Notes under the pieces: model-generated | The model's input: only the letters and a program-made list of their open reading frames with translations | Databases searched by the model: none | Told to the model about the DNA's origin: nothing | Made by a program: the position numbers and the translations under genes | Source of the DNA: Thioclava marina | Lineage (GTDB): Bacteria; Pseudomonadota; Alphaproteobacteria; Rhodobacterales; Rhodobacteraceae | Direction of reading: 5' to 3' | Length of the DNA stretch: 64,000 nucleotides | NCBI RefSeq assembly: GCF_002020135.1 | Contig: NZ_MPZS01000002.1 | Coordinates: 248,001-312,000 of the forward strand | Shown: positions 36,117 through 63,633 of the stretch, one piece after another | Layout of the letters: each line of letters opens with the position of its first letter | How positions within the stretch are numbered: position 1 is the first letter of the stretch

Positions 36117-36893
36117 TTAAACCACGCGGTTGACCTGCATCCGCTTGATCTCGGCGATCGCCTTGGCCGGGTTCAGGCCTTTCGGGCAGGTCTTGGTGCA
36201 GTTCATGATCGTGTGGCAACGATAGAGCTTGAAGGGATCTTCCAGCGCATCGAGACGCTCCCCGGTCGCCTCATCGCGCGAGTCGATGATCCAGCGATAG
36301 GCGTGAAGAAGCGCCGCCGGGCCGAGATATTTGTCGCCGTTCCACCAGTAGCTCGGGCACGAGGTCGAGCAGGAGGCGCACATCACACACTCATAGAGAC
36401 CGTCGAGTTTCTTGCGATCCTCGATCGACTGACGCCATTCCTTCTCGGGGCGGTTCGTCTTGGTTTCCAGCCAGGGCATGATCGAGGCGTGCTGGGCATA
36501 GAAATGCGTCAGGTCCGGGATCAGGTCCTTCACCACCGGCATATGCGGGAGCGGATAGATCTTCACGTCGCCCTTGATCTCGTCGAGGCCATAGATACAG
36601 GCCAGCGTGTTGATCCCGTCGATATTCATCGCGCAGGAGCCGCAGATACCTTCGCGGCACGAGCGGCGGAAGGTCAGCGTCGGGTCGATCTCGTTCTTGA
36701 TCTTGAGAAGCGCGTCGAGAACCATCGGCCCGCACTTGTCCATATCAAGGAAATAGGTGTCGAGCCGCGGGTTCTCCCCGGTGTCCGGGTCCCAGCGATA
36801 GATCTGGAACTTGCGGACGTTCTTGGCATCCGGCTTCGGCCAGGTCTTGCCGACGCGGATCTTGGAATTCTTCGGAAGCGTGAACTGAACCAT
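36117..36893 (-). CDS. sdhB: Succinate dehydrogenase iron-sulfur subunit
   Basis: 258 residues. The N-terminal [2Fe-2S] domain has Cys79, 84, 87, 99 ([15 protein letters not shown]). The C-terminal domain carries the [4Fe-4S] and [3Fe-4S] ligands in [16 protein letters not shown] and [14 protein letters not shown]. It passes electrons from SdhA to ubiquinone. Last gene of the sdhC-sdhD-sdhA-lipoprotein-sdhB operon; ATG 36893. Confidence 0.97.
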
Positions 36894-36910
36894 GATTGGT
36901 CCCCTTTCCG

Positions 36911-37198
36911 TCAGTACGAATAGAGCGGCCGCGTGGGCATCCGGCCGGATTTTCTGTAAACGCAGGCGTTGTAGGCCTCTGAGGGATCGCCCTGAACCGT
37001 GACGCCGAGATTGAAGTCGAGTTCCACTTCGGAGTGGAAACCCTCGTTCGTGACGCCCATGCCCGCCGAGCCGGTGACCGGCGCTTTCGGAGCATATTGG
37101 GCGTAGCACTGGCGTTCGGCCTGTTCGACCGGAATGGGACCGCAGGCAGCGAGGCCGAGCCCCGCCGCCATCAGCCCATATGCCGGTCCGAGGCGCAT
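36911..37198 (-). CDS. Small lipoprotein encoded between sdhA and sdhB
   Basis: 95 residues. Signal peptide with lipobox LAAC (Cys19), then a short domain [20 protein letters not shown] with a second Cys and a C-terminal [18 protein letters not shown]. The gene starts at the sdhA stop (one-base overlap, 37198) and is 17 bases from sdhB, so it belongs to the operon. No known subunit of complex II looks like it; function unknown. Confidence 0.8.
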
Positions 37199-39003
37199 CA
37201 GTAGACCCGCTTCTTGGGCGCGATCTTCTTCAGCTCGATGCCGCCATCGGCCTCGGGCGTCAGCGGATCGAGATGGACCGCGCGGAAGCTGAGTTTCACC
37301 TCGTTGCCATCGACATGCATGATCGAGTGCTTGCGCCAGTTCGCGTCGTCGCGATCCGGGTAATCCTCGTGCGCATGCGCACCGCGCGATTCCTTGCGGG
37401 CCTCGGCGCCGACGATGGTCGCCAGAGCGTTCGGCATCAGGTTCTCGAGTTCCAGCGTTTCCATCAGGTCCGAGTTCCAGATGAGCGAACGGTCGGTGAC
37501 CTTCAGATCGTCCAGCTTGGAAGCCACGACCTTCATCTTCTCGACACCTTCGGCCAACGTCTTGTCGGTGCGGAACACCGCCGCGTCGGCCTGCATCGTG
37601 CGCTGCATCTCGAGGCGCAGTTCGGCCGTGGGCGTGCCGCCATCGGCGTAACGCACCTTGTCGAAGCGGTCGAAGATCGCGTCGATCTTGGCTTTCGGGA
37701 TGATCGGGTTGGCGCTGTTCGGATCGACGATCTGACCGGCGCGGATCGCGGCGGCACGACCGAAGACCACGAGGTCGATCAGCGAGTTCGAACCCAGACG
37801 GTTTGCACCATGCACCGAAGCCGAACCCGCCTCGCCCACGGCCATCAGGCCGGGCACGATCGCATCGGGATTGTCGGCGGTCGGGTTGATGACCTCGCCA
37901 TGATAGTTCGTCGGGATACCGCCCATGTTGTAGTGCACGGTCGGCAGAACCGGGATCGGCTCTTTGGTGACGTCGACGCCGGCGAAGATCTTCGCCGATT
38001 CCGAGATCCCCGGCAGACGCTCGGCCAGCGCTTCCGGCGGAAGGTGGCTGAGGTTGAGGAAGATGTGGTCCTTGTGCTCGCCCACGCCGCGGCCTTCGCG
38101 GATCTCTAGCGTCATGCAGCGCGACACCACATCACGCGAGGCCAGATCCTTGTAGGTCGGAGCGTAACGCTCCATGAAGCGCTCGCCTTCGGAGTTGGTC
38201 AGGTAACCACCCTCGCCGCGCGCGCCCTCGGTGATGAGGCAGCCCGAGCCGTAGATGCCGGTCGGGTGGAACTGCACGAATTCCATGTCCTGAAGCGCGA
38301 GGCCAGCCCGCGCCACCATGCCGCCACCGTCGCCGGTGCAGGTATGGGCCGAGGTGGCCGAGAAATAGGCGCGGCCGTAGCCACCCGTGGCCAGAACCAC
38401 CATCTTCGCGTTGAAGACATGCATCGTGCCGTCGTCGAGTTTCCAGCAGACGACGCCCTGACACTGCCCGTCATCGGACATGATCAGGTCGATCGCGAAA
38501 TACTCGATGTAGAACTCGGCGTTGTTCTTCAGCGACTGACCGTAAAGCGTGTGCAGGATCGCGTGGCCGGTGCGGTCAGCGGCGGCACAGGTGCGCTGCA
38601 CGGGCGGGCCTTCACCGTATTCGGTGGTGTGGCCGCCGAAGGGGCGCTGGTAGATCTTGCCCTCTTCGGTGCGCGAGAACGGCACGCCGTAATGCTCGAG
38701 CTCGTAGACGGCCTTGGGGGCTTCGCGCGCGAGGTATTCCATCGCGTCGTTATCCCCGAGCCAGTCCGAGCCCTTGATCGTGTCATACATGTGCCACTGC
38801 CAGCTGTCCGGGCCCATGTTGCCCAGGGACGCGGCGATACCGCCCTGCGCGGCGACGGTGTGCGAGCGGGTCGGGAAGACCTTGGTCACGCAGGCGGTGC
38901 GCAGGCCCTGTTCGGCCATGCCCAGCGTGGCGCGCAGACCCGAGCCACCGGCGCCGACCACGACCACGTCGTAATTGTGGGTTTCGTATTCGTATGCAGC
39001 CAT
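37198..39003 (-). CDS. sdhA: Succinate dehydrogenase flavoprotein subunit
   Basis: 601 residues. The FAD-binding [19 protein letters not shown] (about 16-34) is followed by the covalent-FAD His48 in [30 protein letters not shown] and the active-site region [14 protein letters not shown] are present. It oxidises succinate to fumarate in the TCA cycle at the inner membrane. ATG 39003; the stop shares a base with the small lipoprotein gene. Confidence 0.97.
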
Positions 39004-39019
39004 TTGCCTCGTCCCGTTA

Positions 39020-39412
39020 TCAGTTGCCCAGCAGAAGGCCGATGAAGACCATCTTGCCGAGTGCATAGAGTGCGGTCGCCATGATCACGTAAGCCAGCGA
39101 ATGCATCGCGATCTTGAGCGCCTTGCCGGCGGTGCCGTGCACGTAGTCTTCGATCCAGACTTCGGTGCCCTTCGCGAAGTGCTGCATGCCGACGATCACG
39201 ATCAGCGCGGTCAGGATCGCCGGGAAGGGGCTCGCGAAGGTGGAGATCACGGTCTGCTGGTCAGCGCCCAGCGTGGTGCCGACGATGAAGAGCCAGGTCG
39301 GAATCATGAAGGCAAGCGCCACGGCGGATGCCGACATCCACCAGTGATGCTCGGTACCGGTGCCCGAGGCACCTTTGCCAACGGCGCGTTTGCGGTCGGT
39401 GAGGTAACGCAT
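39020..39412 (-). CDS. sdhD: Succinate dehydrogenase membrane anchor subunit
   Basis: 130 residues with three hydrophobic segments ([54 protein letters not shown]). The [16 protein letters not shown] segment carries the haem/quinone-side residues. It forms the membrane anchor of complex II with SdhC. Gap of 11 bases from sdhC and 16 to sdhA. Confidence 0.93.
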
Positions 39413-39423
39413 CTCGGCCTCCG

Positions 39424-39813
39424 TTACAGATGAATGATGATGAGGGTCAGCGCGGTCAGCACGACCGAGCCGATGATGCAGACCCAGCCGAGCATTTCGG
39501 CGGTCTTGATGTCCATGTAGCGGCCGGTATCCCAGATCAGGTGACGGATCCCTGCAAGGTAGTGATACCAGACGCCCAGCAGCGACAGGGTGAAGACCAG
39601 ATCGCCGAACCAAGAGGTCGCGATCGCGTTCACGAAGTCGAAATAGGCGGGGCTGGTCGCCGCGGCGAGCAGCCACCAGACGAGCAGCAGCACGCCGACG
39701 ATGATCCCGTTGCCGGTGATCCGCGTCATGATCGACGAGAACGACGTCATCTGCGGGCGGTAGATTTGAAGGTGCGGGGAAAGCGGGCGCTCAACCTGTT
39801 TCACTTCAGCCAT
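39424..39813 (-). CDS. sdhC: Succinate dehydrogenase cytochrome b556 subunit
   Basis: 129 residues with the family start RPLSPHLQIYRPQMTSFSSI, containing the ubiquinone-site Ser and Arg. Three membrane segments follow, with the haem-ligand His region WYHYLAGIRHLIWDTG. First gene of the sdh operon. Upstream, 39814-40069, lies the pair of TGTGATCACA sites, so this is the gene whose promoter they control. Confidence 0.94.
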   Translation of the reverse strand: MAEVKQVERPLSPHLQIYRPQMTSFSSIMTRITGNGIIVGVLLLVWWLLAAATSPAYFDFVNAIATSWFGDLVFTLSLLGVWYHYLAGIRHLIWDTGRYMDIKTAEMLGWVCIIGSVVLTALTLIIIHL

Positions 39814-39987
39814 GATCGGTCCCTTTGTTCGCTGGGCTCGACACAAGCAGCGCCCCATGAACGGGGTCCGGGCTTGCGCGGAGCTGGCCGGAATTGGGTT
39901 TGTTACTAACGCAATTTTCCCCCAAGTCACGCGCTCAGAGCATGAAAAACTGTGATTTGCGCTCAAACAGGGGTGAAAAATTCGCTT

Positions 39988-40018
39988 TGTGATCACATAA
40001 ATTCTGAGCGTGATCACA
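39988..40018 (-). promoter_or_regulatory. Paired AkgR-type operators upstream of sdhC
   Basis: Two palindromes, TGTGATCACA at 39988-39997 and CGTGATCACA at 40009-40018, have centres exactly 21 bp apart (two helical turns). They start 175 bases upstream of the sdhC ATG. Between and around them the spacer carries TTCTGAGC. The same layout occurs upstream of sucC. A weaker 9-base palindrome GTTACTAAC lies nearer the gene at 39902-39910. Confidence 0.72.
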
Positions 40019-40069
40019 TGTTACCGCTCGCGGAGGCCGCAGCCCCCGCGAGTGAGTCTCCCGCCGCGA

Positions 40070-41104
40070 TCAGGTCGGCATCAGCGCCCAGTAATCGAGA
40101 TCGAGCAGCACTTCGGGCAGGTATTTCCCGTCCTCGCCCTTATAGGCGAACTCACTCGCACCCTGTTTCGTGGCGACCAGCCGCAGCCGGATCGCGCCGA
40201 CGCCGGGAATGTCGGTCTCGGCGCGGTCGAGCACTTCCGACCAGGCCTTCACCGTATCGCCCGAGAAGCAGGGATTGGCATGTGCGCCGCCATTGAGCGC
40301 CACGATCATCTGCGCGTTGGCCAGTCCGTTGAACGAGAGCGCGCGGGCCATCGAGATCACATGCCCGCCATAGATCAGGCGCTGGCCATCCTCGCGGAAG
40401 GTGGCGTCGAAATGCACCTTGGCGGTGTTCTGCCACAGCCGGGTGGCGATCATGTGCTCGGCTTCCTCGATCGTGACGCCGTCCACATGGTCGATCTTCT
40501 CGCCAATCTCGTAATCGCCCCAGCGATGCGGTTCGCCCGCGAGGTCGAAATCGTAGCCTTCGAAACTCAGCCCCTCAGGGATAACCAGATCCTCAGGGGC
40601 CACGACCTTGGCCAGTTCGGGCAGCACGGTCTCGGGTGCGGGGGCCTCGAAGTCGCGTTTGCGCACCATTACCCAGCGCACATATTCCAGCACGACCTCA
40701 TCCATCTGGTTGAAGCCGCGGGTGCGGACATAGACCACCCCGGATTTGCCGTTCGAGTTCTGCTTAACCCCGATCACTTCGCTTTCGGAGCGCAGCGTAT
40801 CGCCCGGATAGACCGGCTTGATCCAGCGACCTTCCGCATAGCCAAGGTTCGCCACCGCATTGAGCGAGACATCCGGCACCGTCTTGCCGAAGACGACGTG
40901 GAAGGCGATCAGATCGTCGAGCGGCGAGCCCTCGAGCCCGCAGGCAGCCGCGAACTCGTCCGAGGAATAGAGCGCGTGACGTGCCGGATAGAGCGCGTGA
41001 TAGAGCGCGCGCTCCCCTTCCGCGACGGTGCGCGGCACCGCGTGGCGGATCACGTCGCCGATCTTGTAATCCTCGAAGAAACGGCCCGGATTGGTCTTGC
41101 CCAT
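40070..41104 (-). CDS. mch: Mesaconyl-CoA hydratase (MaoC family)
   Basis: 344 residues, two hot-dog-fold MaoC domains. In the ethylmalonyl-CoA pathway it hydrates mesaconyl-C1-CoA to beta-methylmalyl-CoA. The start GKTNPGRFFEDYKIGD and ALYPARHALYSSDEFA match R. sphaeroides Mch as I know it. ATG 41104 is chosen: GGGAGAG lies 5 bases before it but only 2 before the ATG at 41107. Position next to mcl2 supports the pathway assignment. Confidence 0.88.
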   Translation of the reverse strand: MGKTNPGRFFEDYKIGDVIRHAVPRTVAEGERALYHALYPARHALYSSDEFAAACGLEGSPLDDLIAFHVVFGKTVPDVSLNAVANLGYAEGRWIKPVYPGDTLRSESEVIGVKQNSNGKSGVVYVRTRGFNQMDEVVLEYVRWVMVRKRDFEAPAPETVLPELAKVVAPEDLVIPEGLSFEGYDFDLAGEPHRWGDYEIGEKIDHVDGVTIEEAEHMIATRLWQNTAKVHFDATFREDGQRLIYGGHVISMARALSFNGLANAQMIVALNGGAHANPCFSGDTVKAWSEVLDRAETDIPGVGAIRLRLVATKQGASEFAYKGEDGKYLPEVLLDLDYWALMPT

Positions 41105-41310
41105 CATTGCTCTCCCAGCTTCATGTCGGGGTGATATTCGCCCGCGATTTCCTTGGTCACGGCCTGCGCGCAACGCATCACGCCCTTCGCCTGATCGAAG
41201 GCGTATTGCGGATCGCCATGCAGCGCCCAGCCCTTCGAGAGCGCGAGGCTGACCTTGTGGCAAAAGGCCGAGGTGTCGTCTTCGGTAAGCAAACGATAGA
41301 TCAGTGCCAT
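41104..41310 (-). CDS. DUF1737 small protein
   Basis: 68 residues: ALIYRLLTEDDTSAFCHKVS then GWALHGDPQYAFDQ. The LSKGWALHG segment is typical of DUF1737, small soluble proteins of unknown function. It is translationally coupled to mch (stop and start overlap) and separated by one base from the NnrU-like gene. Cys17 and Cys46 are its only cysteines. Confidence 0.8.
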   Translation of the reverse strand: MALIYRLLTEDDTSAFCHKVSLALSKGWALHGDPQYAFDQAKGVMRCAQAVTKEIAGEYHPDMKLGEQ

Positions 41311-41311
41311 G

Positions 41312-41863
41312 TTACGCCCCGAAAACCGCGTAGCCGAACCAGTAGTGGATGCCCGCGATCGCGCCATAAAGGATCAGCGTGCCGACGATGCCACCGATTT
41401 CCTTACCGATATTGACCTGCGGGTTGGGCTTGGCGGGCTTGCTCTGCTTGTTGATCAGGATCACCTCCAGCACCGCCCAGGCCAGCAGACCGCCGAACAG
41501 GATGATCCCCGGCAGGGTCGGATTGACCAGAAGATGCGCGAGCGCCCAGGTCTTTACCCCGGTCAGCTGCGGGTGGCGGATCTTGCCGCTGAGCCACAGT
41601 TTCATGCCCGAGACCGCGAACAGATAGACCGCGAACAGCATCAGCAGGTTGTTGACGCCTTTAAGCGCCGCGTTCGGCGTCCAGAGATAGAAAACCGGAT
41701 CGGCAGCGCGCCAGCCGATGAACATCAGCACGACGCTGATCAGAACGAGTGCGGCCACCATCGGACGCTCCGCGCCCTTGAGCGCGCGCCGGAAGCCCGG
41801 GAAGATCCGTTTCGCGAGATGTGCCAGCGACCAGATCAGGACGCCGAGGATGAGAAGTGCCAT
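41312..41863 (-). CDS. NnrU-family membrane protein
   Basis: 183 residues with about five hydrophobic segments; hallmark KIRHPQLTGVKTWALAHLLVN (about 93-113). NnrU is named for a denitrification-associated gene, but relatives resemble isoprenoid/carotenoid isomerases such as Z-ISO, which bind haem. There is no denitrification gene here; it sits in the ethylmalonyl-CoA operon between mcl2 (12-base gap) and DUF1737. Role inferred only as a membrane protein co-expressed with this pathway. Confidence 0.82.
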   Translation of the reverse strand: MALLILGVLIWSLAHLAKRIFPGFRRALKGAERPMVAALVLISVVLMFIGWRAADPVFYLWTPNAALKGVNNLLMLFAVYLFAVSGMKLWLSGKIRHPQLTGVKTWALAHLLVNPTLPGIILFGGLLAWAVLEVILINKQSKPAKPNPQVNIGKEIGGIVGTLILYGAIAGIHYWFGYAVFGA

Positions 41864-41875
41864 TGCGATTGCCTC

Positions 41876-42736
41876 TTAGCTGCCAAGCGCGGCAATCGCC
41901 TCCGCCTTGGCGAGGATCTGCCGCGCGGTGACGATATGCAGATTCTCCACGATCTTACCATCCACGACCGCAACCCCCTGCCCCGCGGCCTCGGCCTCTT
42001 CGAAGGCCGCGATCTGACGCTTGGCGAGATCGATCTCGGCTTCCGAAGGCGCGAAGGCGGCGTTGCAGACCGTCAGTTGCGCCGGGTGGATCAGCGTCTT
42101 GCCGTCAAAGCCCATGTCGCGGCCCTGATCGCATTCGAATTTCAGGCCCTCGTCATCTTTGAACGCGTTGTAGACGCCATCGACGATGATCTTGCCATGA
42201 GCCTTGGCCGCCAGCAGGCACAGGCCCAACCCCGCCTGCATCGGCAGACGGTCGGCGCGGAAGCGGCTCCCGAGTTCCTTCGCGAGATCGTTGGTGCCCA
42301 TCACCATCCCCTCGAGCCGCGGATGCGCGGCGATGGCGCCTGCGTTGAGCATCCCCAACGCGGTCTCCATCATCGCCCAGAGAGACACGCCCGGGATCAG
42401 ATCGGCCACCGCGTCCAGATCCCCCGTCGTCGAGACCTTCGGGATCAGGATCGCATCGACCTTGGCGCCTGCGCGGATCGCCTCGGCAAAGGCGAGGATG
42501 TCTTCGCGACCCCAGTCGGTGTCGAGCCCGTTCACCCGCACAATCCGCATCCGCGGGCCGTAATCGGCCTCGGCCAGCGTCTTCGCCAGCAGCGCGCGGG
42601 CATTCACCTTCTCGTCAATGGCAACGGCGTCCTCGAGATCGAAGATGATCGCATCACAGGCCAACCCCGTGGCTTTCTCCAGCGCACGCTCTTTCGAGCC
42701 GGGAATGTAGAGCACGGAACGGGTGGGGCGGGCCAT
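41876..42736 (-). CDS. mcl2: (3S)-malyl-CoA thioesterase, CitE/HpcH family
   Basis: 286 residues, TIM barrel related to citrate lyase beta. Motifs are SVLYIPGSKERALEKATGLA, IFDLEDAVA (metal-binding Asp), IPKVS and GMVMGTNDLAKELGSR, with DGKTLIHPAQL near the C-terminus. It matches R. sphaeroides Mcl2, which hydrolyses (3S)-malyl-CoA to malate in acetate assimilation, better than the longer Mcl1 lyase. ATG 42736 has GGAGA 6 bases upstream. First gene of the operon mcl2-nnrU-DUF1737-mch. Confidence 0.85.
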   Translation of the reverse strand: MARPTRSVLYIPGSKERALEKATGLACDAIIFDLEDAVAIDEKVNARALLAKTLAEADYGPRMRIVRVNGLDTDWGREDILAFAEAIRAGAKVDAILIPKVSTTGDLDAVADLIPGVSLWAMMETALGMLNAGAIAAHPRLEGMVMGTNDLAKELGSRFRADRLPMQAGLGLCLLAAKAHGKIIVDGVYNAFKDDEGLKFECDQGRDMGFDGKTLIHPAQLTVCNAAFAPSEAEIDLAKRQIAAFEEAEAAGQGVAVVDGKIVENLHIVTARQILAKAEAIAALGS

Positions 42737-42925
42737 TTGATTCTCCATCTCGCAATTTTCTTTCGCCAGATCGCACAAACGAGACAGAATCGGCAAGCCC
42801 CGATTTGCCGCAACGCAGAAAAATCGCCTCTTTGCGGGACGCTGCGCGGAGCTCGCGTGGGAGGTTAACCCTATTTTCGCATCTCGCGGCGCAGGTTCGG
42901 GACTTCTGTGACGAAAGGGCGCGTT

Positions 42926-43237
42926 ATGCTGCAAAAGATGATCGGCCTCTCCCTCGGCTTCGCTTTGGTGGTTGCGCTTGCGCAGCGCGCGCCCGCCGAA
43001 ACCGCCTCTTGCGGCCAGCGCGCCGATCTCGTGTCCCAACTCCAAACCCGCTATCTCGAGACCCGCCGCGCCATCGCGCTGGCGGAAAACAACGCGGTGC
43101 TTGAGATCTTCGCCTCCGAAAGCGGGAGCTGGACAATTCTCGTTACGCGCGCGAACGGGCAAAGCTGCCTGATCGCCTCGGGAGAGGCCTTCGAAGCGCT
43201 TGCCGAAACGCTGCCGGCTCAGGACACCGCGCTCTAG
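42926..43237 (+). CDS. Small exported protein, unknown
   Basis: 103 residues with signal peptide (LQKMIGLSLGFALVVALAQR, predicted cleavage around APAE). A mature alpha/beta domain follows with Cys pairing possible (ASCGQRADL and SCLIASGEAF). ATG 42926 follows an AAAGGG ribosome site; GTG 42908 has none. It is divergent from mcl2 and converges on the TauE gene with a 4-base overlap. No family recognised. Confidence 0.65.
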   Translation: MLQKMIGLSLGFALVVALAQRAPAETASCGQRADLVSQLQTRYLETRRAIALAENNAVLEIFASESGSWTILVTRANGQSCLIASGEAFEALAETLPAQDTAL

Positions 43238-43980
43238 GCGAAAATCGCCTGGTGGATCAGCTTTAGAGAAATCAGCAGCAGCGCCCAGATCACGATCTTG
43301 TAGAAGATCTCGGTGGGCATCCGCTTCACCAGCCAAACCCCGAGAAACACCGCTCCCGAGGCCGGAACGGCGAGGATCATCGCCGTGCCCAACGAATCCC
43401 AATTCACCTCGCCCAAAGCGATGTAGGGGCCGAGCTTCGCCAGATTCACATAGGAAAACAGCACCGTCGCTGTGCCCGCGAAGACCTGCTTGGGGAGGTT
43501 GAGGGGGATCGTGTAGGTCTGAAAGGGCGGCGCGCCGGAATGGCTGACGAAGCTGGTGAAGCCCGCAATCGTGCCCCAGAACAGCCCCGGCGCGACCTTC
43601 GCCTCCTGGCGCGCGCCGGGCCGATGCCGGAACAGCGCGTTGAGCGCGAACACCGCACCGATCGTCCCCACCATCAGCGTCACCCAACGCTCGGACACGA
43701 TCTCGGCGGTGGCCCAGCCAATGCCGATCCCGATCGTCGTGGCGGGAATCATGATCGCGAGCACACGCCGGTCGAACGCCTTGCGATAGGCCCAGAGGCC
43801 GAACATGTCCGCGACGATATAGACCGGCAGCAAGAGCCCCGCGGCCGCGACCGGATCCATCACCATCGCCAACACCGGAACCGAGATCGATGCCGCCATC
43901 GGGATACCGCCCTTCGACAGGCCGACCATCACCGCAGCAAGAAGTGCCAGGGCCCAGCCCGTCACACTCAGTTCCAACAT
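43234..43980 (-). CDS. TauE/SafE-family sulfite/anion exporter
   Basis: 248 residues with about eight hydrophobic segments and the two TauE/SafE repeats: AAVMVGLSKGGIPMAASIS near the N-terminus and GTIAGFTSFVSHSGAPPFQTY in the middle. The family exports sulfite or sulfonate-type anions across the inner membrane. Nothing in the neighbourhood identifies the substrate. Confidence 0.85.
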   Translation of the reverse strand: MLELSVTGWALALLAAVMVGLSKGGIPMAASISVPVLAMVMDPVAAAGLLLPVYIVADMFGLWAYRKAFDRRVLAIMIPATTIGIGIGWATAEIVSERWVTLMVGTIGAVFALNALFRHRPGARQEAKVAPGLFWGTIAGFTSFVSHSGAPPFQTYTIPLNLPKQVFAGTATVLFSYVNLAKLGPYIALGEVNWDSLGTAMILAVPASGAVFLGVWLVKRMPTEIFYKIVIWALLLISLKLIHQAIFA

Positions 43981-44075
43981 CGCGTTTTCTCCTCCCGATC
44001 GAGAATCGCCCTCCCCGACCGTTGTCCCTGAGTTGCATGGGGACGGGTCGAAGGGAACCGCGACCCCGAAAAGAG

Positions 44076-44128
44076 AATGTAAGCAAAGTCCGAAAGCGGA
44101 CCGCTTCGGCATACATTTGCATACATTT
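44076..44128. promoter_or_regulatory. Nested inverted and direct repeats upstream of mdh
   Basis: AATGTAAGCAAA (44076-44087) is an inverted near-match of TTTGCATACATT (44116-44127). Inside is CCGAAAGCGGACCGCTTCGG (44090-44109), an imperfect palindrome. GCATACATTT is repeated directly at 44109 and 44119, one helical turn apart. The block ends 106 bases before the mdh ATG. Confidence 0.5.
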
Positions 44129-44188
44129 TTTCGTTTCCGCGCCCCGCCGCAGCGCAGCACCCTTGCCCTTTGGGAACCAAAGAGCTAG

Positions 44189-45196
<1,008 letters not shown>

Positions 45197-45222
45197 TCGA
45201 AAATCAAGCCTGATCCGAATTT

Positions 45223-45255
45223 GGGGCGCGCCTTCGGGCGCGCTCTTTGCGTTTT
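45223..45255 (+). terminator. Terminator of mdh
   Basis: GCGCGCC-TTCG-GGCGCGC (45226-45243), extended by two weak pairs, is followed by TCTTTGCGTTTTC. It separates mdh from the opposite-strand glycosyltransferase gene. Confidence 0.6.
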
Positions 45256-45286
45256 CTGGCCGGCGAGTCCGTCAGGGCGATGATGG

Positions 45287-46351
45287 TCACGCTGAACTGA
45301 CGAGCGGCTCGGGGTCAAAGCCAAACGCGTCGTGCAGCCGGCCGATCAGATCCGCCTCGTGACGGATCAGCGCGCGATCGAACCCTGCTGGGCTCAGATC
45401 GACCTTATCTCCAAAGAGCGCGTGTGTTTCCTCGGCGATGGCCAGCTGCGGGCGGATCAACAGCTCATGCGCCGCCAGTTCCTCGGCTTCGTAATCGCGC
45501 AGGCCCTGGACGTCCCACCACAGCCGCATCAGCTCATCGGGATCTTCGGCGCGCAAGGCGGCCTCGTTGAACTGGGCGGTGCGCGAATTGACATAGGGCA
45601 CCGGCTGCCCCGTCACCTTGGTCGTCACCCGACGCAGCATCTTGAGCAGGAAATGCAGCGGCGTAAGCCCGTCGAAATGCATCAGCCGCGCGTTGTAGCT
45701 GGGTCGATAGGGCAGATCGTTGACCGTGCTGTCCCAATGGCTGAGCGGGAAATGCACCCCGATCGCATAGCCGCGCCCCGAGCGCACCACCGGCTTGCCC
45801 GCGACATGGCCTGCAAGCCCCTTGTGCAGGTAGCGCGCGCGCAAACCATAGAACAGCAGCCCTTCCTCGGCGAAACCATCCCAGCGTCGGCGGAAGGCAC
45901 CCGCGAAGATATCGGCGCCGGGCGCCTTGCTCAGATAACAGCGCTCGTCCACCTCGAGCCGCAGCCACGCCTTCTGCTCCCCGGTCTTGGCCAGTTCCCA
46001 TTCGAGCGGGCGCGCGAGGCTCACGAACTCGTCCGCATCGCAATGGATGAGCCAATCCAGATCGGTTTCGGCCAGGGTCCGGGTCGCATTGTATTTCTGC
46101 CGTCCCTGATGGCGCGCCGGTCGCTTGTTGCGCCAGCCCCGCGCCCAGCCATCTTCGCCCGAATGGTGGACGAACACGCCGTCGACCCCGCCGATCAGAG
46201 CCTCGGCCTCGGGGTTGGGCCGGTCGAAGAACACATGAACCTCGCTCGCCCCGATCGCGCGGTGATGCGCGACATAGGCCGCGACCAGCGCTGCGGGCTC
46301 ATCCACGGTGGCCACGACGCCCCAGCGCGGCATCTCTTCACTTTGCGTCAT
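45287..46351 (-). CDS. Glycosyltransferase family 2-like protein
   Basis: 354 residues. The GT-A pattern is seen in WGVVATVDEPAALVAAYVAH, EVHVFFDRPNPEA and the metal-binding DLDWLIHCDADEFV. A C-terminal region contains HFDGLTPLHFLLKMLRR. It is similar to proteins grouped with GT2/GT92-like transferases acting on cell-surface sugars. It lies between mdh and sucC on the opposite strand and shares its upstream region with sucC. ATG 46351 is the best start but its ribosome site is weak. Confidence 0.8.
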   Translation of the reverse strand: MTQSEEMPRWGVVATVDEPAALVAAYVAHHRAIGASEVHVFFDRPNPEAEALIGGVDGVFVHHSGEDGWARGWRNKRPARHQGRQKYNATRTLAETDLDWLIHCDADEFVSLARPLEWELAKTGEQKAWLRLEVDERCYLSKAPGADIFAGAFRRRWDGFAEEGLLFYGLRARYLHKGLAGHVAGKPVVRSGRGYAIGVHFPLSHWDSTVNDLPYRPSYNARLMHFDGLTPLHFLLKMLRRVTTKVTGQPVPYVNSRTAQFNEAALRAEDPDELMRLWWDVQGLRDYEAEELAAHELLIRPQLAIAEETHALFGDKVDLSPAGFDRALIRHEADLIGRLHDAFGFDPEPLVSSA

Positions 46352-46447
46352 ACGCCTGTCATGCTTCGACTGTCCCTTTCCCGCAACTGACTCGATTTTC
46401 GCGAGTCGTGCCAGTGCCCGCATGCCACACTGCAGCATTTTGGCATT

Positions 46448-46478
46448 TGTGATCACACATTTTGAGCCTGTGATCACA
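46448..46478 (+). promoter_or_regulatory. Paired AkgR-type operators upstream of sucC
   Basis: Two perfect TGTGATCACA palindromes lie at 46448-46457 and 46469-46478, with centres 21 bp apart. They start 140 bases before the sucC ATG and 97 bases from the divergent glycosyltransferase ATG. The spacer contains TTTTGAGC, matching TTCTGAGC at the sdh site. Confidence 0.75.
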
Positions 46479-46587
46479 TATGTCGTTTTTTCAGGCCGAG
46501 CGAGGCGAATTGTCGCGATTTCAGTTTGAGTGAAGTCTCAAAGCGCCTAGAACCCCTGCAAATCGCACCAGCATGGGGTATCCAAGG

Positions 46588-47781
46588 ATGAATATCCACG
46601 AATATCAGGCCAAACAGCTCCTCAAGAGCTACGGCGCTCCGGTCTCGGATGGCCGCGTCGTTCTCAAGGCTGAAGAAGCCAAAACCGCCGCGAGCGAGCT
46701 CGACGGCCCGCTCTGGGTCGTGAAGGCTCAGATCCACGCCGGCGGCCGTGGCAAAGGTCACTTCAAGGAGCCCGAAGCGGGTGAAAAGGGCGGCGTTCGC
46801 CTCGCCAAGTCGGTCGAAGAGGCCGAGACGCTGGCCAAGCAGATGCTCGGCAAGACCCTGGTGACGCACCAGACCGGTCCGGCCGGCAAGCAGGTCAACC
46901 GCATCTATATTGAAGACGGCTCGGACATCTCGCGCGAGCTGTATCTCGCGCTGCTCGTCGACCGCGCCACCTCGCGCATCTCGATCGTCGCCTCGACCGA
47001 AGGCGGCATGGACATCGAGGAAGTCGCGGCCTCGACCCCCGAAAAGATCCTGAGCTTCTCGATCGACCCGGCCACGGGCTACCAGGCCTTCCACGGCCGT
47101 CGCGTCGCGTTCTCGCTGGGCCTCGAAGGCCCGCAGGTCAAGCAGATGGTCGCGCTGCTCGGCAATCTCTACCGTGCCTTCACCGAGAAGGACATGGAGA
47201 TGCTCGAGATCAACCCGCTGATCGTGATGACCGACGGCAATCTCAAGGTTCTCGACGCCAAGCTCGGCTTCGACGGCAACGCCGTCTACCGCCACTCGGA
47301 CATCGCCGCGCTGCGCGACGAGACCGAAGAGGATCCGAAAGAACTCGAAGCCTCCAAGTACGACCTCAACTACATCGCGCTCGATGGTGAGATCGGCTGC
47401 ATGGTGAACGGTGCGGGCCTCGCGATGGCCACGATGGACATCATCAAGCTCTACGGCGCCGAGCCCGCGAACTTCCTCGACGTCGGCGGCGGCGCCACGA
47501 AAGAGAAAGTGACCGAGGCGTTCAAGATCATCACGTCGGATCCGAACGTCAAAGGCATCCTCGTGAACATCTTCGGCGGCATCATGCGCTGCGACATCAT
47601 CGCCGAGGGCGTTATCGCCGCGGTCAAGGAAGTCGGCCTGCAGGTCCCGCTCGTCGTGCGCCTCGAAGGCACCAACGTCGAGAAGGGCAAGGAAATCATC
47701 GCCAATTCCGGCCTCAACGTCATCGCCGCCGACAACCTGTCGGATGGCGCAGAGAAAATCGTCAAAGCGGTGAAGGGCTAA
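46588..47781 (+). CDS. sucC: Succinyl-CoA synthetase beta subunit
   Basis: 397 residues. N-terminal ATP-grasp domain ([39 protein letters not shown]), C-terminal ligase domain with [14 protein letters not shown] and [15 protein letters not shown]. With SucD it makes ATP (or GTP) from succinyl-CoA. ATG 46588 has AAGGATG context with no upstream in-frame competition except 46573. Four bases separate it from sucD. Confidence 0.97.
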
Positions 47782-47785
47782 TATC

Positions 47786-48673
47786 ATGGCAGTTCTCGTC
47801 AACGAAAACACCAAAGTCATCTGTCAGGGCTTCACCGGCTCGCAGGGCACGTTCCACTCGGAGCAGGCGATCGCTTACGGCACCAAGATGGTCGGCGGCG
47901 TGACCCCGGGCAAAGGCGGTCAGAAGCACCTCGACCTGCCGGTCTTCAACTCGGTGCACGAAGCCAAGGCCGTGACCGAAGCGAACGCGACCGTGATCTA
48001 CGTCCCCCCGCCCTTCGCGGCCGACTCGATCCTCGAGGCGATCGACGCGGAAATGGAACTGATCGTCTGCATCACCGAGGGGATCCCGGTCCTCGACATG
48101 ATGAAGGTCAAGCGCGCGCTGATCGACTCCAAGTCGCGCCTGATCGGCCCGAACTGCCCCGGTGTCATCACGCCCGACGCCTGCAAGATCGGCATCATGC
48201 CCGGCCACATCCACAAGCGCGGTTCGGTCGGCGTCGTGTCGCGCTCGGGCACGCTCACCTATGAGGCCGTGAAGCAGACCACCGACATGGGCCTCGGCCA
48301 GTCGTCGGCCGTCGGCATCGGCGGTGACCCGATCAAGGGCACCGAGCATATCGACGTGCTCGACATGTTCCTCGACGATCCGGAAACCCAGTCGATCATC
48401 ATGATCGGTGAAATCGGTGGTTCGGCGGAAGAAGAAGCCGCGGAATTCCTCGCCGAGCAGCGCAAGAAGGGCCGCTGGAAGCCGACCGCTGGCTTCATCG
48501 CGGGCCGCACGGCACCTCCGGGCCGCCGCATGGGCCATGCCGGCGCGATCGTCTCGGGCGGCAAGGGCGATGCAGAGTCGAAGATCGAAGCCATGAAATC
48601 GGCCGGTATCGTCGTCGCTGACAGCCCCGCCACGCTCGGCGAAGCCGTGATGAAGGCGATCAAGGGCGAATAA
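47786..48673 (+). CDS. sucD: Succinyl-CoA synthetase alpha subunit
   Basis: 295 residues. CoA-binding N-terminus ([20 protein letters not shown]), phosphohistidine His in [13 protein letters not shown] and the conserved [14 protein letters not shown]. It completes the succinyl-CoA synthetase. A hairpin at 48693-48714 lies downstream before the small lipoprotein gene. Confidence 0.97.
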
Positions 48674-48692
48674 GCCCGAACTGAAGACAAGC

Positions 48693-48714
48693 GGGGCCGC
48701 GTTCGCGCGGCTCC
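48693..48714 (+). terminator. Hairpin between sucD and the lipoprotein gene (partial attenuator)
   Basis: GGGGCCGCG-TTCG-CGCGGCTCC forms 9 pairs with one G-T and a stable TTCG loop, 19 bases after the sucD stop. No T-run follows, so it may protect the 3' end of sucCD mRNA rather than end transcription. Confidence 0.4.
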
Positions 48715-48740
48715 GGTCTCACGAGGAAAGGACCGGACCC

Positions 48741-49169
48741 ATGCCACTCGCCAGAGCACGGCGCACCACCCGCCCGCTTACGGGGCTGGTTGCTTGCGCT
48801 CTGCTCGCAGGTTGCGTGGAGAGCCGGTCCGCCTCGATCGGGCCGGGGGGCACTCTCGCTCCCGCAGGCGCGCAGGCCTCTGATCTGACTGCGCATGCCC
48901 CTGCCCCGGCCGTGCCGCGCGACGAGCGTTCGCACGGCATGTTCCAGACCCTGACGGGCATCAATGGCGACGCGGTCGCGGCCGTTCAGCTCGGCACGAA
49001 ACCCGCCTATGTCTGGTTCGATCCCGTCGCAGCCCAGCCCGGCACGGTTGATCAGGCCCCGACGCGGATCTGCGCGAAGCGCGGCAGCCCGGTGCAAAGC
49101 TCTTACATCACGCGTCCGGAGGACAATGCTCCGGGGGTGCAGGTGCTCGTCGTGGAGTGCCTGTCATGA
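48741..49169 (+). CDS. Putative lipoprotein between sucD and sucA
   Basis: 142 residues. Signal peptide with lipobox LLAGC (Cys25), then a Gly/Ala/Pro-rich linker and a C-terminal domain with QTLTGINGDAVAAVQLGT and RICAKRGSPVQSSYIT ending VLVVECLS; the two Cys could form a disulfide. Ribosome site GAGGAAAGG. Same strand as sucCD and sucA, so likely in the operon. Unknown function. Confidence 0.75.
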   Translation: MPLARARRTTRPLTGLVACALLAGCVESRSASIGPGGTLAPAGAQASDLTAHAPAPAVPRDERSHGMFQTLTGINGDAVAAVQLGTKPAYVWFDPVAAQPGTVDQAPTRICAKRGSPVQSSYITRPEDNAPGVQVLVVECLS

Positions 49170-49367
49170 TGTGCCGCACGCCGGAGTTCCCTGCCATGCC
49201 CTGCTCCGCTCAAATCCACATTGTCCCGTTTGCCGTTGCGTGCCCCCTTGCGATCGCACCGGGCGGCAACCACGTGACACCCGATATCGCACCCCCGCTC
49301 ACACACGCGGCCCATCCCTGACCGGACCGCCACACAGTTTGATGTTCACCGCACCGAGGTGAGGAAA

Positions 49368-52322
49368 ATGACAGACCAATCCCCCAACGACCAGTTCAAT
49401 GCCTCGCAGTTCCTGCAAGGCGCGAATGCCGAGTACGTGGAGCAGCTCTATGCGAAATTCGTCGAGGATCCTTCCTCGGTCGATACCGCTTGGGCCGCGT
49501 TCTTCGCCTCGCTCGGCGATCCCGATCAGGATGTGAGGAAATCCGCCACGGGCGCGAGCTGGGAACGCACGGACTGGCCGCCGGTCGCCGCCGATGACCT
49601 CACCGCCGCGCTGACCGGCGAATGGCCGGTGATGGCAGAGGGCAAGGCCGCTGGCGAGAAGATCAAGAAGAAGGCCGCCGAGGCGGGTATCGCGCTGGAC
49701 GAAGCGGCGGTCAAACGCGCCGTGCTCGACTCGATCCGTGCCCTGATGATCATCCGCGCCTACCGGATCCGCGGCCATCTGAACGCCGATCTTGATCCGC
49801 TGGGCATGCGCGAGCATGAGCATCACCCCGAGCTCGACCCCAAGAGCTACGGCTTCACCGATGCCGACATGAATCGTCCGATCTTCATCGACAACGTGCT
49901 CGGCCTCGAGATTGCGTCGATGCGCCAGATCATCGACGTGCTCAAGCGGACCTATTGCGGCACCTTCGCGCTGCAATACATGCATATTTCCGACCCCGAG
50001 CAATCGGCCTGGCTGAAAGAGCGCATCGAAGGCTACGGCAAGGAAATCACCTTCACCAAGACCGGCCGCCGGGCGATCCTCAACAAGCTCGTCGAGGCGG
50101 AAGGGTTCGAGAAGTTCCTGCACGTCAAATACATGGGCACCAAGCGGTTCGGCCTCGACGGTGGCGAAGCGCTGATCCCGGCGATGGAGCAGATCATCAA
50201 GCGGGGCGGCCAGCTCGGTCTCGAAGAGATCGTGGTCGGCATGCCGCACCGCGGCCGCCTCTCGGTACTCGCGAACGTGCTGCAAAAGCCCTACCGCGCG
50301 ATCTTCCACGAATTCCAGGGCGGCTCGTTCAAACCCGAGGACGTGGACGGCTCGGGCGACGTGAAATATCACCTCGGCGCGTCGGCCGACCGTGAATTCG
50401 ATGGCAACAAGGTCCACCTGTCGCTGACGGCGAACCCCTCGCACCTCGAAGCGGTGAACCCCGTCGCGCTCGGCAAGGTGCGCGCCAAGCAGGACCAGCT
50501 CAACGATCAGGAGCATCGCACCAAGGTGCTCTCGGTTCTGCTGCATGGCGATGCGGCTTTCGCGGGCCAGGGCGTCGTGGCCGAGTGCTTCCAGCTCTCG
50601 GGCATCCGCGGCCACCGCACCGGCGGCACGATCCATATCGTCGTGAACAACCAGATCGGCTTCACCACCGCGCCGCACTTCTCGCGCTCCTCGCCCTATC
50701 CGACCGACATCGCCCTGATGGTGGAAGCCCCGATCTTCCACGTGAACGGCGACGATCCGGAGGCCGTCGTGCACGCTGCCCGCGTCGCGATCGAGTTCCG
50801 CCAGAAGTTCCACAAGGACGTTGTCCTCGACATCTTCTGCTACCGCCGCTTCGGTCACAACGAAGGCGACGAGCCGATGTTCACCAACCCGGTGATGTAC
50901 AAGTCGATCAAGACCCACAAAACGACGCTGCAGCTCTACACCGAACGTCTCGTGGCTGACGGGCTGATCCCCGAAGGCGAGATCGAGGACATGAAGGCCG
51001 CCTTCCAGTCGCACCTGAACGAAGAGTTCGAAGCCGGGAAGGTCTTCAAGCCCAACAAGGCCGACTGGCTCGATGGCCGCTGGTCGGGCATGGAGCAGGA
51101 GAAGGGCGAATACGAGCCCGGCAGCACCGCAATCGCGCCCGACACGTTCCAGGAGGTCGGCAAGGCGCTCGTGACCGCGCCCGATGGCTTCGCGATGCAC
51201 AAGACCGTCACGCGTCTGCTCGAAAACAAAAAGCAGATGTTCGAGACCGGGACCGGCTTCGACTGGGCAACCGCAGAGGCGCTCGCCTTCGGCTCGCTGG
51301 TGACCGAGGGCTACCCGGTGCGCCTGTCGGGTCAGGACGCGACGCGCGGCACCTTCTCGCAGCGTCACTCCGCCTTCATCGACCAGAACACCGAAGACCG
51401 CTACTACCCGCTCAACAATATCCGTGAGGGGCAGGCGCGCTACGAGGTGATCGACTCGATGCTCTCGGAATATGCGGTGCTCGGGTTCGAATACGGCTAC
51501 TCGCTGGCCGAGCCGAAGGCGCTCACGCTCTGGGAAGCCCAGTTCGGCGATTTCGCCAACGGTGCGCAGATCATGTTCGACCAGTTCATCAACTCGGGCG
51601 AACGCAAATGGCTGCGCATGTCGGGCCTCGTCTGCCTGCTGCCGCACGGCTTCGAAGGTCAGGGCCCCGAGCACTCCTCAGCGCGTCTCGAGCGCTACCT
51701 TCAGCTCTCGGCGGAAGACAACTGGATCGTCGCGAACTGCTCGACGCCGGCCAACTACTTCCACATCCTGCGCCGCCAGATCCATCGCGACTTCCGCAAG
51801 CCTCTGATCCTGATGACGCCGAAATCGCTGCTGCGTCACCCCAAATGCGTGTCGAAGGCCGAGGAGTTCACCACCGGCTCCACCTTCCACCGCGTTCTGT
51901 GGGACGATGCCGAGATGGGCAATTCGGATCTCAAGCTGAAGTCGGACGACAAGATCAAGCGCGTCGTGATCTCCTCGGGCAAGGTCTATTACGACCTGCT
52001 CGCGCAGCGCGACGAACGTGGCCTCGACGATGTCTACCTGCTGCGTCTGGAACAGTTCTACCCGTTCCCCGCCCAGGCGATGACCAAAGAGCTCACCCGC
52101 TTCAAGGATGCCGAGATCGTCTGGTGCCAGGAAGAGCCGAAGAACCAGGGCGCCTGGTCCTTCGTCGAACCCTATATCGAATGGGTTCTGGCCAAGATCG
52201 ACGCGAAACACGGACGTGCGCGCTATGCTGGTCGCGCGGCCTCGGCCTCGCCCGCAACGGGTCTGGCCAGCCGCCACAAGGCCGAGCAGGACGCGCTCGT
52301 CAACGATGCACTGGAGGGTTGA
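49368..52322 (+). CDS. sucA: 2-oxoglutarate dehydrogenase E1 component
   Basis: 984 residues. N-terminal [20 protein letters not shown] region [32 protein letters not shown], and the C-terminal pyrimidine-binding part with [19 protein letters not shown] and [16 protein letters not shown]. It decarboxylates 2-oxoglutarate with TPP. ATG 49368 has GAGGAAA just upstream. Starts the sucA-sucB-MAPEG-lpd run; sucB begins 4 bases after the stop. The 198 bases upstream (49170-49367) show no gene. Confidence 0.97.
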
Positions 52323-52326
52323 ACCG

Positions 52327-53847
52327 ATGTCCACTGAAGTCCGCGTTCCCACGCTCGGAGAGAGCGTCACGGAAGCCACCGTCGCCACCTGGTTCAAGAA
52401 ACCGGGTGATGCGGTCGCCGCCGACGAGATGCTCTGCGAGCTCGAAACCGACAAGGTGACGGTCGAGGTTCCCTCGCCCGCCGCCGGCACGCTTGGCGAG
52501 ATCGTCGCCGCCGAAGGCGACACGGTGGGCGTTGCAGCCCTTCTCGCCACGATCGAAGAGGCGGGGGCTGCGGCCGCCGCTCCGAAGCAGGAAGACAAAC
52601 CGGCGGCGGCAGCCGCCCAACCCCAATCGAATGAGGGAAAGATGGTCGATGTGATGGTGCCCAGCCTTGGTGAATCGGTCACCGAGGCAACGGTTTCGAC
52701 GTGGTTCAAGAAGGTCGGCGACACGGTCGCGGCCGATGAGATGCTGTGCGAACTCGAGACCGACAAGGTCTCGGTCGAGGTTCCCGCCCCCGCCGCGGGC
52801 GTGCTGACCGAGATCGTCGCCGCGGAAGGCACGACCGTCGACGCCTCGGCCAAGCTCGCCGTGATCTCCGAGGGCGCCTCGGCTGGGGCTGCTGCACCCG
52901 CCGCCGCCGCTCCGGCCGAAGCCGCTCCGGCGTCGGCTGGCGGGAAAGACGTCGAAGATGCGCCTTCGGCCAAGAAGCTGATGGCCGAGAAGGGCATCGA
53001 CCCGGCCTCGGTTCAGGGCTCTGGCAAGGATGGCCGGATCATGAAGGAAGATGTGGCCAAGGCGGCCGACGCTCCGAAACCGGCGACCGTCGCCGTGGCC
53101 CCGGCCCCGGCGCAGGCTCCGCGCGGGCCGGTCAATGCAGACGATGCCAGCCGCGAAGAGCGCGTGAAGATGACCCGCTTGCGCGCGACCATCGCCAAGC
53201 GTCTCAAGGACAGCCAGAACACCGCCGCGATGCTCACCACCTATAACGAGGTGGACATGTCGGGCGTGATGAACCTGCGCAACGAGTACAAGACCCTCTT
53301 CGAGAAGAAGCACGGCGTCAAACTCGGCTTCATGTCCTTCTTCGTGAAGGCCTGCTGCCACGCGCTCAAGGAAGTGCCGGAAGTCAACGCAGAGATCGAC
53401 GGCAACGAGATCGTCTACAAGAACTATGTCCATATGGGCGTGGCGGTGGGCACGCCCAATGGTCTCGTCGTGCCGGTCGTGCGTGACGCCGACCAGCTGA
53501 GCTTCGCCTCGATCGAGAAGCAGATCGCCGAATACGGCGTGCGTGCGCGCGACGGGAAGCTGTCGATGGCCGAGATGCAGGGCGGCTCCTTCACCATCTC
53601 GAACGGTGGCGTCTACGGCTCTCTGATGTCCTCGCCGATCCTCAACCCGCCGCAATCGGGCATCCTCGGCATGCACAAGATCCAGGAGCGCCCGATGGTC
53701 GAAAACGGCCAGATCGTCATCAAACCGATGATGTATCTCGCGCTGAGCTACGACCACCGCATCGTCGACGGCAAAGGCGCCGTGACCTTCCTCGTGCGCG
53801 TCAAGGAAGCGCTGGAAGACCCGCGCCGCCTGCTGATGGATCTGTAA
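52327..53847 (+). CDS. sucB: Dihydrolipoyl succinyltransferase (E2) with two lipoyl domains
   Basis: 506 residues. Two lipoyl domains, with lipoylated lysines K43 and K147 in identical ELETDK motifs, are joined by Ala/Pro linkers. An E1/E3-binding domain ([18 protein letters not shown]) follows. The CoA-acyltransferase core ends with [13 protein letters not shown]. The two lipoyl domains are nearly identical and offset by 104 residues, so they arose by internal duplication, a feature reported for some alphaproteobacterial E2 proteins. Together with SucA and Lpd it converts 2-oxoglutarate to succinyl-CoA. Confidence 0.96.
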
Positions 53848-53880
53848 AGACAGGAACGAAGGCGGCACTCCCTGCCCCTT

Positions 53881-53909
53881 CCTCTTGGTCCAAATATCCC
53901 CGGGGGGTC
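53881..53909 (-). repeat. Dispersed intergenic repeat, copy D
   Basis: On the minus strand it reads CCCCGGGGATATTTGGACCAA followed by GAGG, 33 bases after the sucB stop. Core and register agree with copies A-C. It is flanked by a long G-run (53901-53918). Confidence 0.55.
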
Positions 53910-53959
53910 CGGGGGGGGCAGGCAGCCCCCCGGTCCGCCCTCTCCACCGGGAGCGACAC

Positions 53960-54352
53960 ATGACCCCCGAACTCACCACCCTCGCCCTTGCGCTGCTTCT
54001 CCATCTCGGCCTGATGGTCGCCTATTCGATCAAGGCCAATACCGAGCTGGGCACGCGCTACCCGCTGAGCCCGCGCGACAAGGCCGCACCTGAGATATCG
54101 GTCCTGCTGGGGCGGTTGCAGCGCACGGTGAACAACTCCTTCGAGGGGTTGATCCTCTTCACCCCTGCGGTGCTGATCGTGGTGCTCTCGGGCCAGGCCG
54201 ATCAGACGACGGCGGGCGCGGCGGTCTGCTTCCTGATCGCGCGCGTCCTCTATATCCCGGCCTATCTGATGGGGCTCGTGCCCTGGCGCTCGCTCGTCTG
54301 GGGCTTTTCGTTTTTCGCAATCCTGGCGCTGGTCGTGGCCGCGCTGATCTGA
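53960..54352 (+). CDS. MAPEG-family membrane protein
   Basis: 130 residues, four hydrophobic segments. MAPEG pattern: NTELGTRYPLSPRD, RLQRTVNNSFEGLILFTPA and ARVLYIPAYLMGLVPWRSL. MAPEG proteins include glutathione transferases and small-molecule-binding proteins of the inner membrane. It is inserted between sucB and lpd in the same direction, with 112 bases upstream and 49 bases to lpd. Confidence 0.88.
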   Translation: MTPELTTLALALLLHLGLMVAYSIKANTELGTRYPLSPRDKAAPEISVLLGRLQRTVNNSFEGLILFTPAVLIVVLSGQADQTTAGAAVCFLIARVLYIPAYLMGLVPWRSLVWGFSFFAILALVVAALI

Positions 54353-54401
54353 ACACCCGCGCGGGTCTCCGCGCGCCAAAGACTTCTAAGGAGCAAGACC
54401 A

Positions 54402-63623: not shown

Positions 63624-63633
63624 TGTGATCACG
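63624..63633 (-). promoter_or_regulatory. AkgR-type operator at its own gene
   Basis: TGTGATCACG, one mismatch from the palindrome TGTGATCACA at the sdh and suc promoters. It ends 9 bases before the akgR ATG, so binding here would block transcription or ribosome-site clearance. Only one site is found, whereas the sdh and suc targets have pairs. Confidence 0.65.

Follow-up and report, generated by a model that had tools for sequence, protein, structure and literature searches.

A two-turn paired palindrome at whole-turn distances from the sdh promoter in Thioclava marina and its relatives, and its probable link to a GntR/FCD regulator

The sequence analyzed in this study (hereafter the window) is a stretch of 64,000 nucleotides (nt) from Thioclava marina (RefSeq assembly GCF_002020135.1, contig NZ_MPZS01000002.1, positions 248,001 to 312,000) that contains the sdh and suc operons, mdh and a gene encoding a GntR/FCD transcriptional regulator. 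Searching the window for TGTGATCACA with at most one mismatch yielded five matches, at 39988, 40009, 46448, 46469, and 63624, against a mean of 0.98 in shuffled sequences, and none of 100 shuffles reached five. These are the same five palindromes that had been reported in an initial annotation of the window. The 8-mer GTGATCAC also occurs five times in the whole window, at the same five positions. Four of these words form two pairs with a centre spacing of 21 bp, one upstream of sdhC and one upstream of sucC, and the fifth lies directly upstream of the regulator gene. The identity of mdh was assigned by family models, and the start of sucC was set from MNIHEY homology. The features are as follows.

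36117..39813, - strand: sdh operon (sdhC by family models; sdhA and sdhB named by eye)
39424-39813, - strand: sdhC (family models; start 175 bp from the proximal site)
39903..39908, - strand: predicted sdh -10 box TAGTAA, 16-bp spacer (75 aligned promoters show a TAnnAA-like consensus at +22 from GTGACW)
39925..39930, - strand: predicted sdh -35 box GTGACT (offset 58; GTGACW at whole-turn distances in relatives)
39931..39988, - strand: sdh linker from operator to -35, 58 bp, with phased stretches rich in adenine and thymine (AT; phasing shown on aligned relatives)
39988..39997 (8-mer 39989-39996), no strand: sdh operator, promoter-proximal palindrome TGTGATCACA (pattern match and conservation)
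40009..40018 (8-mer 40010-40017), no strand: sdh operator, promoter-distal palindrome CGTGATCACA (pair with 21-bp spacing kept across the family)
46448..46457 (8-mer 46449-46456), no strand: suc operator, promoter-distal palindrome TGTGATCACA (pattern match and conservation)
46469..46478 (8-mer 46470-46477), no strand: suc operator, promoter-proximal palindrome TGTGATCACA (pattern match and conservation)
46478..46524, + strand: suc linker, phased AT-rich stretches (aligned relatives)
46525..46553, + strand: candidate suc promoter, weakly assigned, with TTT at 46525-46527 and a -10-like TAGAAC at 46548-46553
46588..55790, + strand: sucC, then sucD, sucA, sucB and lpd, with small open reading frames (ORFs) between them (sucC by models, the rest named by eye)
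62959..63615, - strand: GntR/FCD regulator, probable AkgR (PF00392 and PF07729; relatives 76-95% identical; co-occurrence with the pair)
63624..63633, no strand: single site TGTGATCACG directly upstream of the regulator start codon (pattern match; relatives)

The 21-bp pair at sdh and suc, first noticed in the initial annotation, is rare by chance and kept in relatives. In the whole T. marina genome (G000, 3.65 Mb), two 21-bp GTGATCAC pairs were observed versus 0.007 expected under independent placement. The same genome holds 161 copies of the 8-mer, so single GTGATCAC sites carry little meaning and the word alone was rejected as a genome-wide marker. Two more perfect 10-mers outside the window look accidental. 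One, at L001:1501-1510, is a perfect TGTGATCACA that overlaps the end of a DUF2282 gene at its stop codon, with a MbnB/TglH/ChrH gene following, and the other lies inside a long ORF.

A search for the paired pattern, which the initial annotation had proposed for this genome and its relatives, was performed on 295 genomes of the same family representing 294 genera, with two GTGATCAC words 2-32 bp apart as the query. A genome was scored as having the pair if it had any match to this query, whatever the spacing, a definition adopted after seeing the data. A close pair is present in 268 of the 295 genomes. By hand count, 190 genomes have exactly two matches, 43 have one, 35 have three or more, and 27 have none. 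The spacer, also counted by hand, is 13 bp in 65 and 12 bp in 5 of the 75 pairs listed. The context of these N12-13 pairs was determined from 40 fetched stretches of 35 of the 37 genomes listed (without G286 and G090) together with the window. Sixty-eight of the 70 pairs are located upstream of sdhC (33) or sucC (35). The remaining two are found before fumC (G042) and at a place without a called gene (L149). Outside the family, any close pair was detected in 24 of 380 sampled genomes of the class, with scattered spacings, so that the paired architecture seems to be a trait of the family. A control with the reversed pattern was set aside as an estimate of chance because it includes CTAG, a tetramer scarce in many bacteria. 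Triple GTGATCAC arrays with 21-bp steps were identified in three genomes (G285:C18:4907, G135:C8:374318, and G191:C11:327609) among the 26 that were re-searched out of 35 with three or more matches. The pair before fumC, another gene of the tricarboxylic acid (TCA) cycle, is a third two-turn pair in its genome (L168:2494-2522), about 120 bp from the gene and seen in a single lineage.

The spacer motif TTnTGAGC, which the initial annotation had pointed out in both pairs of the window, is not kept in the relatives examined, which share an AT-rich middle instead. The two pairs have the same order on the + strand only; since the genes of sdh lie on the - strand and those of suc on the + strand, the spacer is reversed relative to the genes. 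On both grounds TTnTGAGC was rejected as a recognition element.

At sdh, downstream of the pair, there is a GTGAC(A/T) -35 box and, 16 bp beyond it, a TAnnAA-like box (75 promoters). The pattern of a pair, 50-80 bp and GTGACW was matched in 186 of the 295 genomes. Among the 150 rows listed from these matches, the gap between pair and GTGACW is 57-61 bp in 129, 68-71 bp in 12, and 77-80 bp in 6, one of the last being a suc pair; two further rows have a gap of 66 bp and one of 55 bp. None of the 150 rows has a gap of 62-65 or 72-76 bp. One fetched sdh promoter has a gap of 48 bp, approximately one turn less. Under a null that assumes uniform and independent distances, although relatives are not fully independent, 0 of 20,000 draws reproduced the pattern with all 21 off-peak rows, and 0 of 100,000 did so with 17, after four of the 150 rows were dropped (the suc pairs G199 and G146, and the first G016 and second G233 rows as suspected suc pairs). 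As far as the literature was searched, the occurrence of GTGACW at whole-turn distances from the pair is new.

A GCGCCAA block, where present, is located 36-37 bp before the -35 box in all 11 fetched cases that have both, and also in 13 selected pattern-match rows, including rows with gaps of 69-71 bp. In these cases, then, the operator shifts as one unit, whereas block and promoter keep their places. A GCGCCAAAAAACCGCGC-like block, 36-37 bp from the sdh -35 box on its upstream side, was seen in a subset of genomes (e.g., L142, L147, and L152); it is perhaps the site of a second regulator or a docking site for polymerase. Among 35 suc rows, the share with a T is 74-89% for each of the positions +47..49, and 22 of 53 rows have exactly TTT there. 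A switch to TTGACA was considered for genomes that lack the pair; 4 of 18 of them have GTGACW within 300 bp upstream of sdhC, and no common alternative was seen. Counted from the predicted -10 boxes of the window, the word centres lie at about -97/-118 (sdh) and -87/-108 (suc). The words thus stand roughly 85-120 bp before the predicted transcription start, which bears out the earlier remark that pairs so far upstream would suit an activator.

The linker between operator and -35 box keeps an AT phase. When promoters are aligned by their operators, AT peaks occur at approximately +1, +11, +21, +31, and +41 in sdh and suc alike, with a median linker sequence identity of 30-34%. The periodicity has a power of 6.3 at sdh (n = 43, best period 10.25, maximum 3.0 in 1000 circular shifts) and 7.6 at suc (n = 49, best period 9.5, maximum 2.4 in 1000 circular shifts); the suc value is from a rerun in which four triple-array rows from two loci were removed, reducing the set from 53 to 49 rows. 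Forty further sdh promoters, held out and picked from GTGACW pattern matches so that all have GTGACW, gave a power of 6.3 with a shift maximum of 3.3 and a profile correlation of 0.90. The periodicity also persists in 60 promoters that lack the GCGCCAA-type block (power 5.9). As far as the literature was searched, the phased AT-rich linker is new.

The regulator encoded at 62959..63615 contains the domains PF00392 (54.5 bits, cut-off 27) and PF07729 (64.3 bits, cut-off 24.3). Eighty loci encoding relatives, none of them an R. sphaeroides record, were kept, and share 76-95% identity with the window protein. The closest named relatives include those in Thioclava sp. JE_KL1 (95%) and T. dalianensis (90%). 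In the alignment of 81 sequences, 88 of 218 positions are at least 99% identical, among them N136, H140, and H183. The metal site of FCD domains consists of Asp/Asn, His, His, and His. In a by-eye alignment to 7u5q, D205, also at least 99% identical in the 81 sequences, occupies the place of the last metal-binding His. A ygjP-like gene directly precedes the regulator in 79 of the 80 loci, and suc-lpd or sdh genes lie within the fetched flanks in 37. GTGATCAC is found within 150 nt upstream of the regulator start in 50 of the 80 loci, compared to 1.2% of random windows.

The regulator also co-occurs with the pair. With an ortholog cut of E < 1e-50, chosen after seeing the data (nearest values on either side 4.6e-55 and 3.1e-44), an ortholog is present in 262 of the 268 genomes with the pair and 6 of the 27 without it (Fisher p 1e-21, ignoring relatedness). 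Of the six ortholog-bearing genomes without a matched pair, two have a near-perfect pair at sdh (one and two mismatches), in one the upstream DNA is too short, in two the assembly gives no match to sdhA, and one (G281) has no pair at sdh. One part of these comparisons at sdh did not include G021, G264, and G273. Eighteen of the 21 genomes that lack both pair and ortholog were checked at sdh. In 17 of them the best match has at least four mismatches, within the range of their own shuffles. The other, G167, has a 3-mismatch match (shuffle minimum 4, 30 shuffles) 1339 nt from sdhA, outside the usual place of pairs and near-pairs at 937-970 nt. Together with the site at the regulator start, this co-occurrence upholds the link between the pair and the GntR/FCD gene that was drawn in the initial annotation. 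The gene in the window probably encodes AkgR.

Several known systems resemble parts of this arrangement. At class I promoters of E. coli, CRP acts from far upstream on a fixed helix face and at whole-turn positions. Whole-turn distances between operator and promoter are also found here, which relates to mechanism only and not to membership of that class; CRP itself is not related to the regulator of the window and recognizes TGTGAN6TCACA, whereas here two words lie two turns apart and further upstream, and the word in the window has no 6-bp spacer. NanR of E. coli is likewise an FCD-type GntR protein on tandem sites, but it binds GGTATA direct repeats and represses.

The closest system is the AkgR regulon of Rhodobacter sphaeroides, reportedly the subject of a 2015 mBio paper by Imam et al.; AkgR is the protein that we take to be RSP_0981. 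In the available part of PMC4344238, RSP_0981 is a GntR protein whose predicted targets are sucCD, sdh and the 2-oxoglutarate dehydrogenase genes, and its number is near those of sdh (RSP_0974-6). The available text of PMC6365646 calls AkgR a transcriptional activator, and in the literature examined it is named only as a GntR protein. The window protein combines a GntR DNA-binding domain with an FCD domain, and GTGATCAC is present at sdh and suc as predicted sites. It shares with AkgR the family, the predicted targets, the word and the proposed activating role. According to the same part of PMC6365646, the deoxyribonate regulator PS417_07240 of Pseudomonas simiae is 32% identical to AkgR and has a predicted GTGATCAC site as well; it differs in its target genes and in that its site is single and lies at -47 to -40 relative to the start codon. 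CceR, a companion regulator, has been studied in Paracoccus (PMC11323563, in part), and the GTGATCAC word was found within a primer in a bacterial paper (PMC12724174, in part). Since the available parts of PMC4344238 and PMC6365646 describe them, the regulon and the GTGATCAC word are already published and not new, as the initial annotation had recognized in outline. As far as the available text of these accounts goes, the literature searched describes neither the exact two-turn pair nor its whole-turn distances to the promoter, and neither a phased linker nor triple arrays; the AkgR paper itself could contain part of this.

The reading that we consider probable is that paired AkgR dimers activate sdh and suc from approximately -85 to -120 via curved, phase-locked DNA. 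It is built on the observed sites, their conservation and spacing, the whole-turn distances, the AT phasing and the co-occurrence, from which we infer AkgR identity, binding, dimers, curvature, polymerase contact, activation and autorepression. The GntR/FCD protein of the window would bind GTGATCAC as a dimer. Because the words are two turns apart, two dimers at sdh and suc would sit on one DNA face. AT-rich minor grooves one turn apart would face one side, so the linker DNA should curve, and it would bend towards the regulator, given the way FadR-type proteins are seated on DNA, which would place the AT minor grooves on the regulator's side. The curvature may let the paired dimers reach an RNA polymerase whose promoter has a weak -35 box (GTGACW). 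Such a promoter in need of help is plausible because the sdh -35 box departs in its first letter from the consensus TTGACA. Contact would require a fixed helix face, and whole-turn shifts of the operator would be explained if the activator is held to one face and reaches polymerase flexibly or along curved DNA. Autorepression, in which the regulator would limit its own synthesis, is in keeping with the single site at the start of its gene.

A broader reading is held more tentatively. A GntR/FCD activator may use a higher-order element of two, sometimes three, dimers two turns apart together with a weak promoter, with a linker of about 58 bp, one or two turns more or one less, whose AT-rich minor grooves would be turned to the regulator and which would wrap to it. 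In this element, kept across the family with its letters free, selection would act on helical geometry and not on sequence. To our knowledge, activation by GntR/FCD proteins is little understood.

Several observations weigh against the proposed activation by AkgR. The ortholog of G281, at 48% identity, comes with no pair at sdh. Six pair-bearing genomes have no detectable ortholog (G019, G096, G114, G256, G264, and G273); all are drafts rated 73-100% complete, and G114 is rated 100%. On the SdhA tree, built from usable SdhA of 56 of 59 loci, the pair label changes 10 times, and the supported branches give three independent comparisons and no significance, so the correlation of regulator and pair is not proven free of shared descent. 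The single site is absent at 24 of the 80 regulator loci, six more being one mismatch off. The AT-phase test covered sdh and suc promoters only. The stretch after the -35 box is periodic as well (4.3 and 3.6, maxima 2.5 and 1.7 in 500 shifts), hence the phasing runs on through the promoter, and the upstream side of the operator is just above its own maxima (2.08 vs 2.04 and 1.96 vs 1.91). The best AT period also differs, at 10.25 for sdh and 9.5 for suc, and the promoter boxes of both operons are predicted. In R. sphaeroides, the LacI protein RSP_1663 and NtrC are also predicted at sdh, according to the part of PMC4344238 available. Finally, GTGATCAC is not exclusive to AkgR, as it has been proposed for another GntR protein, in Pseudomonas (PMC6365646, in part), and forms a pair upstream of a distant GntR gene in another family.

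This lack of exclusivity bears on a different explanation, that binding at the pairs is mostly due to another GntR/FCD paralog, or to several sharing GTGATCAC of which the window's gene is one. That the word has been proposed for another GntR protein in the available text of PMC6365646 and stands before a distant one in G440, and that six genomes keep the pair without the ortholog, would fit such sharing. The T. marina genome encodes only four FCD proteins, the ortholog tracks the pair in the proportions given above, and in 50 of 80 loci it carries GTGATCAC at its own start, all of which make this explanation fairly unlikely. Most GntR/FCD proteins are repressors. The pair could accordingly be a repressor site from which the regulator blocks or loops the promoter, with looping as the source of the whole-turn distances; such spacing also marks loops, and the lone site in front of the regulator gene resembles that of a repressor. 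We regard this as quite unlikely, as the pair is located some 85-120 bp upstream of the predicted start, no further GTGATCAC occurs near either promoter in the window, the departure of the -35 box from TTGACA suits an activated promoter, and AkgR is termed a transcriptional activator in the part of PMC6365646 available. A nucleic-acid structure or methylation switch in place of a protein operator is highly improbable. Both words are self-complementary, can base-pair with one another and contain GATC, and as a single strand the sdh pair folds better than most shuffles (z of -3.2; 3 of 200 shuffles fold equally well). A hairpin, however, needs no exact two turns, T/A-rich outer flanks, triple arrays or whole-turn promoter distances, and the pair lies upstream of the predicted transcription start.

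Comparative support for the operator geometry predicted from these genomes is strong. The observation made in the initial annotation is right and understates the case. Its interpretation is partly supported, being right in outline and wrong on the spacer and on a divergent glycosyltransferase gene that was thought to share the suc pair. A homolog of this gene lies within 1.5 kb of the pair in 4 of 35 suc pairs, including that of the window, and is close and divergent in three; it was rejected as a member of the regulon.

In most of the genera sampled from the family, the pair precedes two operons of central energy metabolism, usually whole turns from the promoter. Across the promoters listed, the operator shifts by whole turns and not by half turns, a natural spacing experiment run many times, and in the linker the AT phase is preserved and the sequence is not. 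Activation from one face of the helix, aided by curved DNA, thereby becomes open to a sharp and cheap test on two central respiratory operons, and the geometry of a known metabolic activator becomes directly testable. A 29-bp signature is also available for finding the regulon in new genomes of the family.

Two further arrangements of the word were observed. In G440, from another family of the class, a 21-bp pair (L226; G440:C189:992-1020) precedes a distantly related GntR homolog (29% identity) by about 180 bp, which suggests that the GTGATCAC word is older than this regulon. In one genome of the family survey, two words 13 bp apart (5-bp spacer) lie directly upstream of the regulator gene (G187:C1:3357949-3357969).

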